Of a stretch of DNA of 64,000 bases, positions 55,543 to 64,000 are shown piece by piece. The notes under the pieces were generated by a model. That model had not been told where the DNA came from and did no database searches. It was given only the letters and a program-made list of their open reading frames with translations. Source of the DNA: Erysipelotrichaceae bacterium (GTDB taxonomy: Bacteria; Bacillota_I; Bacilli_A; Erysipelotrichales; Erysipelotrichaceae). The translations under genes and the position numbers were made by a program. The first letter of the stretch is position 1; each line of letters opens with the position of its first letter. Where the stretch lies: positions 1 through 64,000 of the forward strand of contig JAFSUN010000010.1 of the NCBI GenBank assembly GCA_017445225.1. Direction: 5' to 3'.

Positions 55543-57897
55543 CTAATAACCGTTCAGATGGTGTTCCTTCATGTAGGAAGGATAGTCGAAGAAGCAGATG
55601 TCCATGTCCATCCGGGTATCGCTGCCGGGCACCTTGCCGCTGGAGGTAAACTGCCAGATCTTCACGTCGGTGACCTTGGCGGAATGGGACTTGACCTCCC
55701 ACTGGGCACTCCATAAGTCGTATTTGGCGCGGTTTTCGCTGTTTACCCGGGTCAGGACCGACATGCTGGAATAGATGGCCACCTTATAGCCCTTTTCCAC
55801 CAACGGTGCGCAGAAGACATCGATGATCTCGTTGAAGGCCTTGTCGGAAAGCTGCTTCTGGGCCTTGGCCTCGATGTCCAGGCAGACCGGATATTCAAAC
55901 TTCTTGCCCGCGATGTTCTTCAGGAAACTCTCCGCTTCCCTTAAGGCCGCTTCATTGTCGCCGGCGTTGAGATAATGGTAGACACCGACCTTGACGCCTA
56001 CCGAGCGGGCCCGGGCATAGTTCTTTTCAAAGCGGACATCTCTGCTGGTACCGTAGCCCTCCCGGATGATCGCAAAGTCGATGCCGAAGTCCTTCATCTT
56101 CTTCCAGTCGGAAGTGCTGAGGTCGTATTGCCAGGTGGAAACATCAACGCCATAGGAGAATCCGTCGATGACATTGACCGGCACGGTGGCAACGTACCTG
56201 CCGTCCCTGGAGCCGATGGTAATGGTGGCTTCCCCGACCTCATGGGCACTCACCACGCCGCTGTTATTAACGGAACAGATGCTCTCATCAGAACTGAAAT
56301 AGGCCAGTTCCCCGTACTTGGTGATGCGGAACTGGAACTTCTTCCCCTTCATTAACGGCATCGCCTTGGGTGACACGGTCATCTTCTGGGCCGGTATCGT
56401 CACCTCGATGCTGCCGGAAAGGCCGCTGTCATCCCGGCTGAAAGCCCGGATGGTGGTGGTGCCGAAACCGACGGCCGTGATCTTGCCGTCACGGTTGACC
56501 CTCGCCACGCTGTCATCATCGGCATAGTAGACCAGCTTGCGGTCACTGTACTTGCCGGTCAGATGGGCCTTGGCATAGTAGTCATTGCCCTGGGATATTA
56601 TCACCTTTTTCTCATCGATCTGCAGCCTGGCTGCCGGATCGTAAACTTCGATCTTGTAGGTTCCCCTTCCCTGATCACCGGTTACCTCGACATAATCGCT
56701 GCAGACAATGTCAGTCTGCACCACGCCGCTCTTATTGACGCTTACCAGGCCTTTTTGGCTGCGGTAAGTTAATTCACCGCCCAGATCGGAAAAGTCACTG
56801 GAGGGGCTTAAAATGAGCTTCTGGCCGACCTTGGTCCTGAGGAAACGGACATTGGTTCCCTGGGCATCGCTGACTGTAACATGGCAGCTGCAGCTGGCGA
56901 GCTTGCTGGCGGCGATGACATCGGCCTCGCCGATGGCCAGAGCCCGGACGGAGCCATCGGGATAGACCTTCAGGATCTCGGGATCGCTGCTGGCAAAGCG
57001 GACCTCGTCATAGACGAACTGGGGAACTTCCGCCATCTCCAGTTCCCTTAACTCACCCAGATCCAATACGGCTGTTTCTTCCGTAAAGCGCAGATCGACC
57101 GGCTCGTAAGGAATATGATTTTTACTGAGATATCTTTCAATCTCGGTATTCTTATAGCAGATGTATTCGCTTCTCTCCCCCAGGGCCTTTTCTCCGATCT
57201 CCCTGAGGTTCTGGGCAAAGATCATCCGGCAACTGACGCTGAGGTCTTCATCGCAGCCGAAGGCCCCGTCCCCGAGTCTTTCCAGATTCACCGGCAGAAT
57301 GATCTCGCTGATGCTTAAACAGTTATGGAACGCCTGATCGCCGATCTCCTTCAGACTGTCAGGCAGATAAACGGTGTTCAGGGCCAGGAAGCCGGCGAAA
57401 GAGTTGTTGCCGATCCTTTCAACTGTTTCCCCAATGTAGAGATCCTGCAGGCTGTAGCGGCTCTGGTACCAGGGCGTATCCTCAGCTGAAATATAATCAA
57501 TGCCCCTGTTACCGGTAAGATGCAGAATGGCAAGTTCATTCATTTCCATAAAGGCGTCTCTGCCCTGACAGCTCACCGGCCAGTAAAGCACATTCATCAG
57601 CCCGCAGTTATAGAAAGCCCCTTCTTCCACATTTACAACGCTGTCAGGAATACTGATCTCCACGATTTCCGTACAGTCCAGACTTCCCTGGGCAATCGAA
57701 GCTACCGTGTAGCCGTCGATTTCAGAAGGAATGACCAGCGTATCACCGACATTCTCGATATGGGTTATTACCGCACTGCCCTCTTCATTCAGCTCATAAT
57801 GAAAATCCGGACCTTCTTCGGCATGAACAAAGAAGTCCGGCAATACCGGTACAAGGCAGATCAGTACGGCAAGCAGCAATTTCAGCATTCTGTTCAT
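55543..57897 (-). CDS. Secreted GH25 lysozyme-like protein with BspA-like LRR and Big-type repeats
   Basis: 784 residues. Signal peptide (about 1-26, cut near HAEEG). Residues about 30-250 form BspA-like leucine-rich (LRR_5) repeats (S-I-P-D-S-V-V-N-V-E-E-G-A-F, L-P-D-S-L-K-E-I-G-D-Q-A-F). The next ~300 residues hold about three Ig-like Big_2-type domains (A-L-A-I-G-E-A-D-V, A-V-G-F-G-T-T-T-I-R, A-H-E-V-G-E-A-T-I). The C-terminal ~205 residues form a GH25 muramidase with G-V-D-V-S-x-W and the catalytic D-I-E. Surface adhesion with cell-wall cleavage is expected. The promoter (57904-57932) lies so close to the ATG that the message may be leaderless. Confidence 0.9.
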   Translation of the reverse strand: MNRMLKLLLAVLICLVPVLPDFFVHAEEGPDFHYELNEEGSAVITHIENVGDTLVIPSEIDGYTVASIAQGSLDCTEIVEISIPDSVVNVEEGAFYNCGLMNVLYWPVSCQGRDAFMEMNELAILHLTGNRGIDYISAEDTPWYQSRYSLQDLYIGETVERIGNNSFAGFLALNTVYLPDSLKEIGDQAFHNCLSISEIILPVNLERLGDGAFGCDEDLSVSCRMIFAQNLREIGEKALGERSEYICYKNTEIERYLSKNHIPYEPVDLRFTEETAVLDLGELRELEMAEVPQFVYDEVRFASSDPEILKVYPDGSVRALAIGEADVIAASKLASCSCHVTVSDAQGTNVRFLRTKVGQKLILSPSSDFSDLGGELTYRSQKGLVSVNKSGVVQTDIVCSDYVEVTGDQGRGTYKIEVYDPAARLQIDEKKVIISQGNDYYAKAHLTGKYSDRKLVYYADDDSVARVNRDGKITAVGFGTTTIRAFSRDDSGLSGSIEVTIPAQKMTVSPKAMPLMKGKKFQFRITKYGELAYFSSDESICSVNNSGVVSAHEVGEATITIGSRDGRYVATVPVNVIDGFSYGVDVSTWQYDLSTSDWKKMKDFGIDFAIIREGYGTSRDVRFEKNYARARSVGVKVGVYHYLNAGDNEAALREAESFLKNIAGKKFEYPVCLDIEAKAQKQLSDKAFNEIIDVFCAPLVEKGYKVAIYSSMSVLTRVNSENRAKYDLWSAQWEVKSHSAKVTDVKIWQFTSSGKVPGSDTRMDMDICFFDYPSYMKEHHLNGY

Positions 57898-58077: not shown

Positions 58078-58386
58078 TCAGATGATCTTCATCAGCAGTT
58101 CCACTGCCAGCACACTCACGCAGGCTCCCGCTGCCACTGTCACCAGGCTCTTGCGCTTATAGGCCAGCAACATGGCTACCGCAAAGCCGGCAACAGCTGC
58201 CAATCGGTTATCGGTGACGTAGAAGATGGCCGGTATGGTCATGGCAGCCAGGATCGAATTGGGTATGTAGTAGAGGAATGATCTGATGAAGGGGTTGGTG
58301 ATGGTCTTCCTTACAAACAGCAGCGGTATTACCCTGATCAGATAAGCCACGCCTCCCATGACGATCAGATAGGCGATAAACGGCAT
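58078..58386 (-). CDS. azlD: AzlD family branched-chain amino acid transport subunit
   Basis: Small partner of AzlC in branched-chain amino acid export. 102 residues with four hydrophobic segments (about 3-20, 38-58, 66-82, 84-102). It has the Y-L-I-R-V-I-P-L-L-F motif and the Y-I-P-N-S-I-L-A-A-M-T region seen in AzlD proteins. The start overlaps the azlC stop by one base. Confidence 0.92.
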   Translation of the reverse strand: MPFIAYLIVMGGVAYLIRVIPLLFVRKTITNPFIRSFLYYIPNSILAAMTIPAIFYVTDNRLAAVAGFAVAMLLAYKRKSLVTVAAGACVSVLAVELLMKII

Positions 58387-59087
58387 CAGCCATCACCTCC
58401 TACCGGAGCCTTAACGGCCATGAAAACACTGGCAGCGACGGCACAGATGATGATCGTAAAGCCGCCCGGCAGCTCTCTTAAGTAAGGCAGATAGAAGAAA
58501 CAGAGGCTTAAGGCAACGGATATGGCGATGCACATCAGCATGTTTCTGTCATTTTCTCCGGCCGGTACGAATACCGCAATCAGCATCCCGTAGATTGCAA
58601 TGGAAAGCGAGTCGGTAATGATCGCGGGCAGCACATCCCCTGCCAATACTCCCGCCAAGGTACCCAGGGTCCAGCCCAGATACGGCGGTATCAGAATCCC
58701 GAAACAGTACCTCTTATCAAGCCGGTAATCCTTACCCGTACAGACCGCAAAGATCTCATCGGTATTGCACCAGGCAATGATCAGCTTATCAAGAACTGTT
58801 GTCTCCGGTTTCAGCTTCTGGGAAAGCACTACGCTCATCAGGAAATAGCGCATGTTGATCACCAGCTGGGTACTGGCCAGTTCGACTAATGAACCCTGAA
58901 CGGCAATGATCGGCACGGCGGCGATCTGGCCGGCACTAGTCAGATTGGTGGCGGAAATGGCCACGGCCTGCCAGCCCTTAAGCCCGCATCTTAACGCAAA
59001 GATCCCGAAAGCAAAGGCTACCGAAAAGTAGCCTATTCCTATTGGTAATCCGTCAATGAGTCCTTTCTTAAAAGTGTTCTCTTCCAT
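58386..59087 (-). CDS. azlC: AzlC family branched-chain amino acid exporter
   Basis: Large subunit of the AzlCD exporter. 233 residues with 5-7 hydrophobic segments; G-L-I-D-G-L-P-I-G-I-G-Y at the N-terminus, N-M-R-Y-F-L-M-S-V central, and D-E-I-F-A-V family motif. Two bases after the cyuA-like gene. Substrates may be branched-chain or related amino acids; export activity is family knowledge. Confidence 0.92.
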   Translation of the reverse strand: MEENTFKKGLIDGLPIGIGYFSVAFAFGIFALRCGLKGWQAVAISATNLTSAGQIAAVPIIAVQGSLVELASTQLVINMRYFLMSVVLSQKLKPETTVLDKLIIAWCNTDEIFAVCTGKDYRLDKRYCFGILIPPYLGWTLGTLAGVLAGDVLPAIITDSLSIAIYGMLIAVFVPAGENDRNMLMCIAISVALSLCFFYLPYLRELPGGFTIIICAVAASVFMAVKAPVGGDG

Positions 59088-59089
59088 AA

Positions 59090-60361
59090 CTACTTACCAA
59101 GCATGATGTTCAGTATGACAATGTCCGTATAGTCCATGCCTTCCCTGGCCATGCGTCCCACCGCCTTGATGGTTGCCTCCTGATCTTCCATGGTCAATCC
59201 TTCACTATGGAACAGATGCCGGCCCTTTAAGGCCATGTCCATGGAGGTTAAGGCCGTTTCCACGGCTGAGGCGATCTTGCTGGCGCAGGAACTCTTGGCC
59301 CCGTCGCATACCATTCCCCCGATCGTGCAGATCGAAGTCGCGACGGTATCCATGATCTGCTCGTAGCCGCCGCCCTTTAACCAGCATATCCCGGCCGCTG
59401 CCGCACTGGCCGCACTGGCCACGCCGCAATAGGCGCTTAAGTAGCCGATGTACTTCTTCTGATGAACAGCCATCAGGTTGGCCAGTACCAGTGCCCGGTA
59501 CAGTTTTTCACGGCTGCACTTCATCTCTTCCGCAAATTCAATGACGGGCAGAGAGACGGTAATGCCCTGGTTGCCGGAGCCGCAGTTGATGACTACCGGC
59601 ATCGGACAGCCGTTCATTCTCGCATCGCTGCCGGCCGCCGCCCGGGCCTTAGCACGGGTATAGACGTCATTTGATCTTTCCATCAGGGTCCGGCCGACCT
59701 GAGCGCCATATCTTTTCTTTAAGCCTTCCCAGGAAATGGCGGTATTGTCTCTGATCTGGCTTTCGATCAGATCACCGATCTCACTTAAATCAACGGTCTC
59801 GGCATATTCGATGATGTCCCTGCCGTTTAATAAGCTCTTGTCCGGTCCAACGCTGTCTTCCCCGCTGTCCTTGTGCTGATCAACGAAGGTCTTGCCGTCG
59901 ACGATCACGCGGTTGACGTTATTGTGCTTGTTGACGATCTCGATCTCCGCACTGTGGTGTTCGCTGACTCCCTTAACAACGATGAAGAGACTCGGTACAC
60001 CTTCAGCCAGATGAACGGTAACATACCCCCTGGCCAGTTCTTCTCTTAATTTCTGACGGTGTTCGTCATTGGCTCTGACAATGACCTGTAAATCAGCGTT
60101 GGGGTCGCCGGCAATGATGCCTAGCATAACGGCCGTATCAACGCCTCTTAGGCCGCCCGAATTGGGTACCACGACACCCTTGACGTTCTTGATGATATTA
60201 TCGCTGCAGAAAACATCGACTTTTACCGGCATCTCCCCCAGGTATTCCCTGAGCTTGGCTCCGGCTAAAGCTACGGCGATCGGTTCGGTGCAGCCGGTAG
60301 CCGGCAACAGTTCCGAACGCAGTATTTCCGTATAGGTGTCGTATGTCTTCTTACTTAACAT
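59090..60361 (-). CDS. cyuA: L-cysteine desulfidase/L-serine dehydratase-alpha-like protein (CyuA/UPF0597)
   Basis: Homologue of iron-sulphur cysteine desulfidase (YhaM/CyuA) that splits L-cysteine to pyruvate, ammonia and H2S. The 423-residue protein has the N-terminal A-T-G-C-T-E-P-I-A, the central N-C-G-S-G-N-Q-G, C-G-V-A-S-A-A-S-A-A-A-A, and G-M-V-C-D-G-A-K-S-S-C (likely Fe-S cysteines). I prefer the ATG at 60361 (AAGGATATAACG upstream); it overlaps the UroD-like gene by 11 bases. Substrate preference (cysteine versus serine) cannot be read from sequence. Confidence 0.88.
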   Translation of the reverse strand: MLSKKTYDTYTEILRSELLPATGCTEPIAVALAGAKLREYLGEMPVKVDVFCSDNIIKNVKGVVVPNSGGLRGVDTAVMLGIIAGDPNADLQVIVRANDEHRQKLREELARGYVTVHLAEGVPSLFIVVKGVSEHHSAEIEIVNKHNNVNRVIVDGKTFVDQHKDSGEDSVGPDKSLLNGRDIIEYAETVDLSEIGDLIESQIRDNTAISWEGLKKRYGAQVGRTLMERSNDVYTRAKARAAAGSDARMNGCPMPVVINCGSGNQGITVSLPVIEFAEEMKCSREKLYRALVLANLMAVHQKKYIGYLSAYCGVASAASAAAAGICWLKGGGYEQIMDTVATSICTIGGMVCDGAKSSCASKIASAVETALTSMDMALKGRHLFHSEGLTMEDQEATIKAVGRMAREGMDYTDIVILNIMLGK

Positions 60362-61406
60362 CGTTATATCCTTCTTCCCGGACCACTTCATCCATCAGGG
60401 TGAAGACATAGCGGTCCACATCCATCGGTAAGGCACAGCCCGGGGCAAAAACTACCCGGTTGTCCCCGCTCTGGTTAATGACGGTTAACAGTCTCTTTCT
60501 GAAGAATTCCTTCAGTTCATCGCGGTTATTGTCGTCATTGTAATAATCATAGTGTCTGGCCAGACCGGTGATCAGCACCTTGTCGGTCATGGCTCTTACT
60601 TCGGCTACACTGGTTATGTCCTCTTCCGGAATGCCCGGCACGCAGTTTTCCCAGCTGTAAGCCTGGACATCGTACAGCATGGCCTTGTCGAACATCAGCT
60701 GGCTTTCCCCGTGCACATGCAGGACATTGAACCAGGTCCGCTCTTTGATGTAATCCAGCAGTTCCGTATCGTACGGGGTGCAGAACTCATCAAAAAGTTC
60801 AGGCGTAATGACCTTGCGGGTTATGTACTGATGAGCATAGAAGATTCCGTCAACATGGGCTTCATCGCACAAACGGTCAAGATATACCTTCAGGGAATCG
60901 GTAACGACCCTTAAGGCTCTGTGCATCTCTTCGGGATGCTCTTTCAGCAAAGGCAGGATCTTGTCATTGGTTCCTCTGCTCATTAATTCCTGTAGGAAGG
61001 TCAGCGGAGTAAACACGGTAGCGATAACCGGCTTGTTGCCGTCATAGTGCTGCTTTAAGGCTTTGGCAATCGCCACTTCCCTTTCAATGACCGGATTATC
61101 TTTCTCCAGCACCTTTAGGGCCTTCAGCTCGGCCAGGTTGGTTATCGGGTAGCGGTTGATCTTCCCATACCAGTGGGTGGGATCCTTGCTGAGAGTAATA
61201 TCACCGCCGTACATCTCCGGCGGGAAATGGCCGGTGGACATGACTTTAATGAAATCCCAGCCACAGTATTCGGTAACATGAATGGTCGCTCTGACCATGT
61301 CCGTAACGTTATGATCAACAAACGGCATGTGGACCCAGCCGGCGACGCCGCAGCGGTCAAAAGGTTCATGATTGATCATCGCCTTAAGGCGTTGGGTACT
61401 GTTCAT
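60351..61406 (-). CDS. Uroporphyrinogen decarboxylase-family protein (MtaA/MtbA-like)
   Basis: 351 residues with the UroD TIM-barrel pattern (N-terminal Q-R-L-K-A-M-I-N-H, C-terminal F-A-P-G-C-A-L-P-M-D-V). No haem genes are nearby, so it is unlikely to be HemE. The segment H230-V-H232-G together with C324 resembles the H-x-C...C zinc site of corrinoid/coenzyme M methyltransferases of this superfamily, with one Cys replaced by His. A methyl transfer role is therefore plausible. It starts 1 base after livF and precedes the cyuA-like gene in an operon of transport genes. Confidence 0.85.
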   Translation of the reverse strand: MNSTQRLKAMINHEPFDRCGVAGWVHMPFVDHNVTDMVRATIHVTEYCGWDFIKVMSTGHFPPEMYGGDITLSKDPTHWYGKINRYPITNLAELKALKVLEKDNPVIEREVAIAKALKQHYDGNKPVIATVFTPLTFLQELMSRGTNDKILPLLKEHPEEMHRALRVVTDSLKVYLDRLCDEAHVDGIFYAHQYITRKVITPELFDEFCTPYDTELLDYIKERTWFNVLHVHGESQLMFDKAMLYDVQAYSWENCVPGIPEEDITSVAEVRAMTDKVLITGLARHYDYYNDDNNRDELKEFFRKRLLTVINQSGDNRVVFAPGCALPMDVDRYVFTLMDEVVREEGYNDVK

Positions 61407-61407
61407 G

Positions 61408-62115
61408 CTAACCTCCCAGATAACTCTTGATGATGATGTCGTTTCCTAACAGTTCGCTGCCCTTTCCTTCTATTGTGATCTCACCGGTTTCCAGGGCATA
61501 GGCACGGTCGGAGATCTCCAGCGCAGCCATGGCATTCTGCTCAACCAGCAGAATGGTGGTACCGTCGCGGTGAATCTCTTCGATCAGGGCAAAGATCTGC
61601 TCGACCAGGATCGGGCTTAAGCCCAGTGACGGTTCATCCAGCATTAACAGCTTCGGATTGGCCATGGTGGCTCTGCCGATCGCCAGCATCTGCTGCTCAC
61701 CGCCGGAAAGCGTACCGGCCAGCTGTTTCTGACGGTCCTTGATCTGCGGGAACAGTTCAAATACTCTGTCGTATTTCTGTCTGACAAGAGCCTTGTCATT
61801 GACGGTGTAGGCTCCCATCAACAGGTTCTCCTCGACGGTGAACTTCGGGAAGATCTGACGGCCTTCCGGACACAAGACGATTCCCTTCTGCACGCGGCCT
61901 CTGGGATCCAGCTTGGTGATATCTTCGCCGTTGAAGATGATCTGGCCCTTGACCGGCTTTAAGACACCGGCCAGGGTATTCATTAACGTGCTCTTGCCGG
62001 CGCCGTTAGCTCCGATGAAGGAAAGGATCTCCCCTTCCTCAACATGGAAGCTGACACCGCGCAAGGCCTTTATGTTTCCATAATGGGTATGGAGATCATT
62101 CACCTGCATCAACAT
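61408..62115 (-). CDS. livF: ABC transporter ATPase LivF
   Basis: Second ATPase of the branched-chain amino acid (HAAT) importer. 235 residues with Walker A (GANGAGKST), signature T-L-S-G-G-E-Q-Q-M, Walker B LLMLDEPSLGL, and H-loop. The ATG at 62115 has GGAGGTAAGCAGC. Overlaps livG by 20 bases. Confidence 0.96.
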   Translation of the reverse strand: MLMQVNDLHTHYGNIKALRGVSFHVEEGEILSFIGANGAGKSTLMNTLAGVLKPVKGQIIFNGEDITKLDPRGRVQKGIVLCPEGRQIFPKFTVEENLLMGAYTVNDKALVRQKYDRVFELFPQIKDRQKQLAGTLSGGEQQMLAIGRATMANPKLLMLDEPSLGLSPILVEQIFALIEEIHRDGTTILLVEQNAMAALEISDRAYALETGEITIEGKGSELLGNDIIIKSYLGG

Positions 62116-62881
62116 GCTGCTTACCTCCTCTACCTAAATAGGCTTCAATTACTTCCGGATTCCTCTGGATCTCCTCCGGTTTGCCTTCGGCGATCTTGGC
62201 TCCGTGGTTAAGAACGATGATCTTGTCGGAAATGGACATGATGACCTTCATGTCGTGTTCGATCAGCAGGATGCCATCGACATCGTTCAGCAGCGACTTG
62301 ATGAATTCGCTGAGTTCGACCTTTTCCTTCGGGTTCATGCCGGCAGCCGGCTCATCCAGCAGCAGTACCTTTGGCTTGGAAGCCAAAGCACGGCCGATCT
62401 CCAGCTTTCTCTGCATGCCGTACGGTAATGAGGTCGACTTGTCATACCGGTGGCCTTCCAGACCGATCTTCTTTAAGATCTCGGTTACTTCTTCTCTGGC
62501 TTCCCTCTCGCAGGTATTCTTGACCTTGTTGGGGAACAGGGACAGAAAGCTGCCGTAAGGAATACGGTGCTGCATGCCGATCAGGATGTTGTCCTCGACC
62601 GTCAGATTGGAGAACAGTCTGATGTTCTGGAAGGTTCTGTTGAAACCCTTTCTTACATACTGAGTGGTATCCCAGCCCTTGGTGAGCTCTCCATCCAGTT
62701 TTACTTCACCGCTGTCCGGGGTATAGAATCCCGTCAGCATATTGATAACAGTAGTCTTACCGGCACCGTTAGGTCCGATCAGGGAGGTTATCTGTCCCCT
62801 TTCCATCGTGAATGAGAGATCATCGACGGCTACCAGACCGCCGAAGGCGATGGTCAGATTGTTTACTTCCAAAAGTGACAT
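62096..62881 (-). CDS. livG: ABC transporter ATPase LivG
   Basis: First ATPase of the Liv importer. Walker A GPNGAGKTT, signature-like S-L-P-Y-G-M-Q-R-K-L-E-I-G-R-A-L, Walker B VLLLDEPAAGM, then IEHDMKVIM. The ATG at 62881 has AGGAGG at proper spacing; an upstream ATG at 62887 is too close to the ribosome site. Its 5' end overlaps the livM stop region. Confidence 0.96.
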   Translation of the reverse strand: MSLLEVNNLTIAFGGLVAVDDLSFTMERGQITSLIGPNGAGKTTVINMLTGFYTPDSGEVKLDGELTKGWDTTQYVRKGFNRTFQNIRLFSNLTVEDNILIGMQHRIPYGSFLSLFPNKVKNTCEREAREEVTEILKKIGLEGHRYDKSTSLPYGMQRKLEIGRALASKPKVLLLDEPAAGMNPKEKVELSEFIKSLLNDVDGILLIEHDMKVIMSISDKIIVLNHGAKIAEGKPEEIQRNPEVIEAYLGRGGKQHVDAGE

Positions 62882-62883
62882 GA

Positions 62884-63903
62884 TCATACCTCCTCAACTG
62901 ATTCAACATTCCGGTGGATCAGTTTATTGAAAATGCTTCTGAGCTTTGCCTTGATCTTGGCACCCGGGATGGAGTGGTTCCACCACATTACCAGTACCAG
63001 GATGACGCCATAGACGATCATGCGGTAGTTGAACAGGAATTCAACATTTCTCAACATTTCCGGTAAGATCGTTAAGAACAGAGCTCCGAAGATGGTACCT
63101 ACGAAGTTGCCCAGACCGCCGACGACCACGACGCTGATACAGTTGAATGACAGGTTGCTGGTGAAGACGGTGTAATCAATGTAACCGTAGATGTGGGCGT
63201 ATAAGGCACCGGCGATACCGGCGAAGATGGCCGAGATCGTGAAGATGATGACCTTATGTGAGAACAGCGGAATACCCATGGCTTCAGCGGCGATGGAGTC
63301 GTCTCTCATGGCCTGCAGGTTTCTTCCCAGTTTGGAGTTGACCAGCCAGTTGATCATGACATAGCTTACCACTACCAGTACCAGAATGAACCAGTACTGC
63401 TCATCCTTATAGGCCAGCTCAAAGCCGAACAGCTTGATGTTCGGGATGTTCAGAATGCCCATGACACCGTTGGTTACCTTGGTCCAGTTACGCATGATCA
63501 GGTTGAGGATCTCGGCGTAGCTTAAGGTGATGATGGTTACATAACGTCCGGTAACACGGCTCATCGGGATCGCCAGCAGCAGACCGGCAATGGCCGAGAA
63601 CAGAATTACCAGCGGGAAAGCTGAGGTGAAGTTCCAGCCGAAGTGGTACCACATGCAGGCGGTGGTGTAGGCTCCTACCCCATAGAAAGCCGCATGTCCG
63701 AATGATACGGTACCGCCGATGCCCATTAACAGGTTCAGGCTCATGCCGAAGATCATGTTGATGGCTGCGGACTGGAAGATCTTAAGGACATAGGAATTGA
63801 CGAACAGCGGAACAATGGCCAGAACGATCATGGTTACGAAGAAGATGAGGTGTCTGACGCCCAGACGCTTTACGATTTCCGTGAATTTGTTTTCGTTCTT
63901 CAT
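62884..63903 (-). CDS. livM: ABC transporter permease LivM
   Basis: Membrane subunit of the Liv importer, 339 residues with about nine hydrophobic segments. It shows the G-M-S-L-N-L-L-M-G-I-G-G-T-V-S-F-G-H-A-A-F family pattern (about 51-73), the EAA-like M-G-I-P region, and G-G-L-G-N-F-V-G-T-I-F-G-A near the end. Confidence 0.95.
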   Translation of the reverse strand: MKNENKFTEIVKRLGVRHLIFFVTMIVLAIVPLFVNSYVLKIFQSAAINMIFGMSLNLLMGIGGTVSFGHAAFYGVGAYTTACMWYHFGWNFTSAFPLVILFSAIAGLLLAIPMSRVTGRYVTIITLSYAEILNLIMRNWTKVTNGVMGILNIPNIKLFGFELAYKDEQYWFILVLVVVSYVMINWLVNSKLGRNLQAMRDDSIAAEAMGIPLFSHKVIIFTISAIFAGIAGALYAHIYGYIDYTVFTSNLSFNCISVVVVGGLGNFVGTIFGALFLTILPEMLRNVEFLFNYRMIVYGVILVLVMWWNHSIPGAKIKAKLRSIFNKLIHRNVESVEEV

Positions 63904-63906
63904 AGA

Positions 63907-64000
63907 CTACACCTTCCTCTGTTCTTTCTTGCCGAACAGGCCCGTAGGCTTGATGAACAGCATGACGATCAGGATGCCGAACGAAATGAACTGGCTGGCC
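63907..64000 (-). CDS. livH: LivH permease, C-terminal end (partial)
   Basis: The frame ending in a TAG at 63907-63909 reads F-G-I-L-I-V-M-L-F-I-K-P-T-G-L-F-G-K-K-E, the usual C-terminus of LivH. It continues off the window. Three bases separate it from livM. Confidence 0.85.
   Translation of the reverse strand, partial: ASQFISFGILIVMLFIKPTGLFGKKEQRKV

Follow-up and report, generated by a model that had tools for sequence, protein, structure and literature searches.

A conserved Erysipelotrichaceae operon combining a Liv-type importer, UroD-like enzymes and a CyuA-type desulfidase, with modified cysteine as a possible substrate

A 64,000-nucleotide stretch of DNA from an Erysipelotrichaceae bacterium (the window; contig JAFSUN010000010.1, contig region C6:1-64000) was found to end within an operon that combines a Liv-type ATP-binding cassette (ABC) importer, two UroD-like enzymes (designated UroD-A and UroD-B) and a CyuA-type L-cysteine desulfidase. 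The operon is real and conserved. We tentatively favour, at somewhat less than even confidence, the reading that the operon, under two-component control, serves to take up a modified cysteine and break it down by means of corrinoid-free UroDs and CyuA. The host genome (1.03 Mb, 15 contigs) is 75% complete, and its relatives are Erysipelotrichaceae metagenome-assembled genomes (MAGs); several of these originate from rumen and goat gut.

The operon starts ~6.5 kb past the window end, its upstream genes lying on the same contig and strand. Its features are listed from the upstream end, with positions above 64000 counted on the contig:

69529-70515, minus: UroD-A, the second UroD (URO-D profile)
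67850-69526, minus: YesM-type histidine kinase (His_kinase)
66804-67853, minus: YesN-type response regulator (Response_reg + HTH_18)
66170-66727, minus: PF14196 protein (ATC_hydrolase profile)
64864-66168, minus: LivK (Peripla_BP_6)
63907-64000, minus: livH, permease (PF02653); cut by the window end, reaching 64791 on the contig
62884-63903, minus: livM, permease (PF02653, LivM subfamily)
62096-62887, minus: livG, ATPase (PF00005 + BCA_ABC_TP_C; top NCBIfam model LivG)
61408-62115, minus: livF, ATPase (PF00005; top NCBIfam model LivF)
60351-61406, minus: UroD-B, URO-D/MtaA fold with a predicted His230-x-His232...Cys324 metal site (PF01208)
59090-60361, minus: CyuA-type L-cysteine desulfidase (PF03313); open reading frame from 60391
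58386-59087, minus: azlC (PF03591, 125.7 bits)
58078-58386, minus: azlD (PF05437, 54.2 bits)
58066-58049, minus: terminator-like hairpin with a T tail, just 3′ of azlD (hairpin scan; L002 1067-1050)

An earlier note on this DNA had described the eight genes from livH to azlD as tightly packed before one shared terminator and had expected a LivK-type gene upstream. Coordinates, strand and Pfam matches agree with this packing: all eight genes run head to tail with gaps of no more than 3 bases (LivH/LivM 3, LivM/LivG −4, LivG/LivF −20, LivF/UroD 1, CyuA/AzlC 2 and AzlC/AzlD −1; UroD/CyuA −41 from the first ATG or −11 from an internal ATG, the likelier start). The hairpin lies where the terminator was placed, and the argument for it is its position after azlD, not the count of such sites (14 terminator-like sites in the scan, 10.8 expected). 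LivK was located as expected, and with it all five LivKHMGF subunits of the importer are present within one operon by profile matches. No Rfam riboswitch or T-box match was found in the leaders of twelve loci, the only match being one tRNA.

Nine other Erysipelotrichaceae contigs, all from MAGs, shared the order (histidine kinase-response regulator)-PF14196-LivK-H-M-G-F-UroD-B-CyuA, and one of them (L038) had no kinase-regulator pair ahead of the PF14196 gene. UroD-A then followed CyuA in 8/8 of the contigs long enough to show that position; its placement before the histidine kinase was peculiar to the window's species. UroD-B and CyuA were both present in congeners G000, G023, G121 and G138 and both absent from G071 (95% complete) and G098 (93% complete), and 57 further genomes of the family carried CyuA homologues without a close UroD-B. 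In Clostridia, CyuA, LivKHMGF, a UroD and a GFO/IDH oxidoreductase occurred together in the cultured Intestinibacillus massiliensis (L042), in Butyricicoccus (L044) and in a Clostridiaceae MAG (L045), where most of the UroD was masked. The Butyricicoccus genome also had a second, diverged cluster (L056), with the same set plus a PF14196 gene and an SDR; identities in these sets were 35–50%. At another clostridial locus (L078), a CyuA-like gene stood divergent beside a TTT carboxylate transporter and two UroDs of the HxH type described below, with an adjoining fumarate-reductase-type flavoprotein and no Liv. Outside Erysipelotrichaceae, CyuA lay within 10 kb in five of 13 clostridial loci with this type of UroD. 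The UroD-B type was rare. A phylum-wide sample of 392 genomes had it once, in the window's own genome, and the clostridial samples had it in 2 of 345, 4 of 392 and 3 of 391 genomes, the centre genome counted in each. Linkage to Liv is thus kept in ten Erysipelotrichaceae genomes and several Clostridia, indicating that the importer goes together with the two enzyme genes, UroD-like and cyuA-like, as had been proposed; their absence from similar liv operons, set beforehand as refuting this, was not what the survey found.

PDB matches of the CyuA-like protein were L-cysteine desulfidases only. In MmCyuA the cluster cysteines Cys287, Cys329 and Cys336 are strictly conserved, and the catalytic Glu25 and Cys23 are not conserved in serine dehydratases (PMC12647591). 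Aligned to the MmCyuA chain, C313, C353 and C360 were invariant in ten orthologues (alignment A3), as were C25 and E27 of a GCTEP motif, so that the invariant catalytic and cluster residues in A3 numbering are Cys25, Glu27, Arg249, Asn265, Cys313, Cys353, Cys360 and Lys363. Because the catalytic pair of MmCyuA is the one not conserved in serine dehydratases, cysteine appears to be the likeliest substrate of CyuA. Like CyuA/CyuP of E. coli (PMC9040844) and MmCyuA (PMC12647591), the operon pairs an importer with a desulfidase of this family whose active-site residues are the same. The importer there, however, is the single protein CyuP and here an ABC transporter, and the operon here has, in addition, two UroD-like enzymes, the PF14196 protein and a two-component system. 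These differences suggest that the imported compound is other than cysteine itself.

UroD-A and UroD-B belong to the URO-D family (PF01208, 96.5 and 93.5 bits; cut-off 23.9). An AlphaFold2 model of UroD-B (pLDDT 86) matched MtaA (4ay7) and HemE equally (Z about 29) and MetE, of the same superfamily and fold, with Z about 20–21. With MtaA and MetE the UroDs share the URO-D/MetE TIM-barrel fold and metal-ligand positions on equivalent strands, but identity is 15–18%, the first Cys ligand is His here and there is no known partner protein. S-methyltransferases of the superfamily use His-Cys-Cys zinc ligands, and its O-methyltransferases have carboxylates or non-coordinating residues in place of Cys (PMC10418091). 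Instead of the His-Cys-Cys site, both UroDs read H-x-H...C (HVHG in UroD-B, HAHG or HCHG in UroD-A), the HAHGN of UroD-A aligning to HICGN of MtaA. HxH...C was invariant in the alignment across the UroD clade and the UroD-B orthologues. In the UroD-B model, H230 and H232 end strand 228–232, and C324 lies just past strand 318–321.

Nine genomes of the genus, three of them at least 93% complete, had neither a corrinoid protein gene (PF02607) nor a reductive activase gene (Ram/RACE, PF14574), whereas the controls worked (positive for PF02607 in 9/14). Nor was there a corrinoid gene in the operon or upstream of livH as far as GalE, where the earlier note had suggested looking for one. Since the nine genomes have neither corrinoid protein nor activase and the UroDs carry HxH...Cys, not HxC...C, corrinoid methyl transfer by the UroD-like protein, the activity that had been proposed for it, is very unlikely in this operon. 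Type I mlp gene clusters likewise hold at least two UroD-superfamily genes, and a part in the metabolism of sulphur or selenium has been proposed for them (PMC10418091), but the operon here has no corrinoid protein or activase and its site is His-His-Cys.

The position of Asp226 in the amino-acid binding protein Atu2422, presumably the ammonium ligand, is occupied by Lys in all Erysipelotrichaceae LivK and by no acidic residue in clostridial LivK. The absence of this residue is a weak hint that the LivK ligand may carry an extra negative charge or have no free alpha-amino group. With the LivK-type NCBIfam model, whose cut-off is 477 bits, LivK reached a score of 49. The PF14196 gene, between response regulator and LivK, matched the ATC hydrolase family at 62.6 bits (cut-off 28.1), but the model of its product resembled Bet3/V4R and phenol-sensor domains (Z about 8–10), and a sequence search of the PDB gave only a chance match. 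With this predicted sensor-like fold, hydrolase activity cannot be assumed, and ligand binding seems as likely as hydrolysis. 2-Aminothiazoline-4-carboxylate, a substrate that the name of PF14196 would imply, was set aside, since the modelled sensor-type fold lends no support to its hydrolysis.

The importer/exporter symmetry read into the operon by the earlier note does not hold, as AzlCD follows CyuA in the window's species alone and is missing from related operons. Only one further clear AzlC occurred in the genus; its genome lacks the operon, and the AzlCD pair there is flanked by a guaB-like and a guaA-like gene. AzlCD was dropped as a functional partner because operon-bearing congeners do not have it and an operon-less congener does. 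It is an addition specific to this species and may serve to relieve amino-acid overload.

In the favoured reading, LivKHMGF would import an amino-acid-like compound, probably one that bears an additional acidic group or whose alpha-amino group is not free. UroD-A and UroD-B, which have no corrinoid partner and whose metal site is predicted to be His-x-His...Cys, would remove or transfer a substituent to leave L-cysteine, which the CyuA-type [4Fe-4S] desulfidase would convert into pyruvate, ammonia and hydrogen sulfide. A candidate for the substituent is a thioether carboxylate, e.g. that of S-carboxymethyl- or S-succinyl-cysteine. We infer the identity of the substituent, the release of cysteine by UroD, the binding of a metal at the UroD site and cysteine as the lyase substrate in vivo. 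Uptake, release and desulfidation of an acidic cysteine derivative fits the importer, the desulfidase, the replacement of Liv by TTT in L078 and the lack of corrinoid genes. The earlier note had also named a sulphur amino acid as a candidate substrate. This is reasonable, since the lyase has retained the residues of cysteine desulfidases (PMC12647591); the sulphur part of the earlier interpretation is thus supported by the lyase, and the corrinoid and exporter parts are not supported.

Several points weigh against this account. Eight of the 13 clostridial loci had no CyuA near the UroD (some contigs were short), indicating that the UroD reaction need not yield cysteine and that UroDs also work elsewhere. 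The clostridial versions are accompanied by a GFO/IDH oxidoreductase for which the proposed pathway has no place; neither this partner nor the CyuA-less loci are explained. The model check of the predicted metal site reached only as far as the positions of its residues on strands.

A sulphur-free substrate is unlikely but the most serious alternative; the UroDs would be carboxylate lyases or decarboxylases, and the CyuA-like enzyme would deaminate serine or another beta-substituted amino acid. It draws on HxH UroDs lying near TTT, CitMHS-like and sugar ABC transporters and near oxidoreductase, creatininase-like and amidohydrolase genes, often without CyuA, and on a LivK without the acidic residue that a plain alpha-amino acid would call for. 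The retention of Cys25 and Glu27, which separate cysteine desulfidases from serine dehydratases, argues against it.

Methyl transfer without a corrinoid is slightly more doubtful. The UroDs would act like MetE, transferring the methyl group of a compound methylated on S, N or O (S-methylcysteine, a sulfonium or a betaine) directly to a thiol, with CyuA removing the demethylated cysteine; S-methylcysteine is a possible substrate by such direct transfer. MetE, which has the same fold, is itself corrinoid-independent, and a MetNIQ-type transporter adjoins the Aerococcus relative. MetE- and MtaA-type S-methyltransferases, however, have Cys where the UroDs here have His, and the neighbours of several relatives are carboxylate transporters, of TTT or CitMHS-like type.

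It is very improbable that this is an ordinary operon for branched-chain amino acid transport into which unrelated genes have hitchhiked; Liv and AzlCD families carry branched-chain amino acid names, but Liv, UroD and CyuA stay linked across two classes and AzlCD does not. Least credible is corrinoid-dependent demethylation of an S-methylated amino acid such as S-methylcysteine by an MtaA/CmuA-type UroD with a corrinoid protein, for which the weak MtaA/CmuA model scores of UroD-A and UroD-B (47–52 bits, cut-off 235) and the likeness of the UroD-B model to MtaA would speak, against the missing corrinoid and activase genes, the HxH motif, and the UroDs of the family that do adjoin corrinoid and activase genes, which have HCCG and form a separate long branch with full support.

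The newest and most interesting element is the HxH UroD clade. The second-position His was also present in relatives from Microvirga, Gemmobacter, Thermomicrobium, Polaromonas, Aerococcus and several Clostridia, and the third-ligand Cys was kept wherever the C-terminus was intact. Members of the clade come from Erysipelotrichaceae, Clostridia, Alphaproteobacteria, Polaromonas, Thermomicrobium and Aerococcus, and they often have an adjacent transporter (Liv, TTT, CitMHS-like or MetNIQ-like). In a quick tree with several long branches, UroD-A and UroD-B were old paralogues within the HxH group, UroD-A nearer the TTT- and MetNIQ-linked members; the clade edge is approximate, as L029, with HVCG, fell among the deep branches. 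A search of the paper library for work connecting UroD to ATC hydrolase, cysteine desulfidase or TTT transporters returned nothing relevant. It is conceivable, though rather doubtful, that the clade comprises uncharacterised corrinoid-free metal enzymes cleaving or transferring carbon-heteroatom (probably carbon-sulphur) bonds of imported carboxylates and that, with CyuA, it converts cysteine conjugates anaerobically into pyruvate and hydrogen sulfide.

Other loci of the clade were varied. An Enterocloster MAG (L043:8904-13261) carried a close UroD-B relative (74% to that of L042) with a zinc alcohol dehydrogenase, a GFO/IDH oxidoreductase, a creatininase-family protein and a sugar-type ABC transporter, and neither CyuA nor Liv; the UroD and GFO/IDH pair seems exchangeable between pathways. 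An HxH UroD stood beside a TTT transporter and a LysR gene on a Gemmobacter plasmid (L068:9001-15671), together with Rid, a pyridoxal-phosphate-dependent cysteine-synthase-family protein and an opine-type dehydrogenase, and on a Microvirga plasmid (L067:1011-13038), together with hydantoinase A/B and an opine-type dehydrogenase, a cysteine dioxygenase gene lying further on. At L078:6146-12812 and L077:1932-6440, two HxH UroDs flanked two CNNM/CorC-like membrane proteins next to the TTT transporter.

A serpin gene (PF00079, 181 bits; contig 71284-72720, L002:14285-15721) lies immediately upstream of the operon, adjoining a sigma-factor-like gene. Downstream, at 55543-57897 on the minus strand of the window, lies the gene of a 784-amino-acid secreted protein whose C-terminus resembles a GH25 lysozyme domain by eye.

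The operon supplies a binding protein, two enzymes and a lyase with easily measured products (sulfide and pyruvate), making UroD function directly testable. If the favoured reading is true, a group annotated as 'uroporphyrinogen decarboxylase family' would be set apart from heme synthesis and B12-dependent methyl transfer, and gut and rumen anaerobes would have a route from modified cysteines to hydrogen sulfide.

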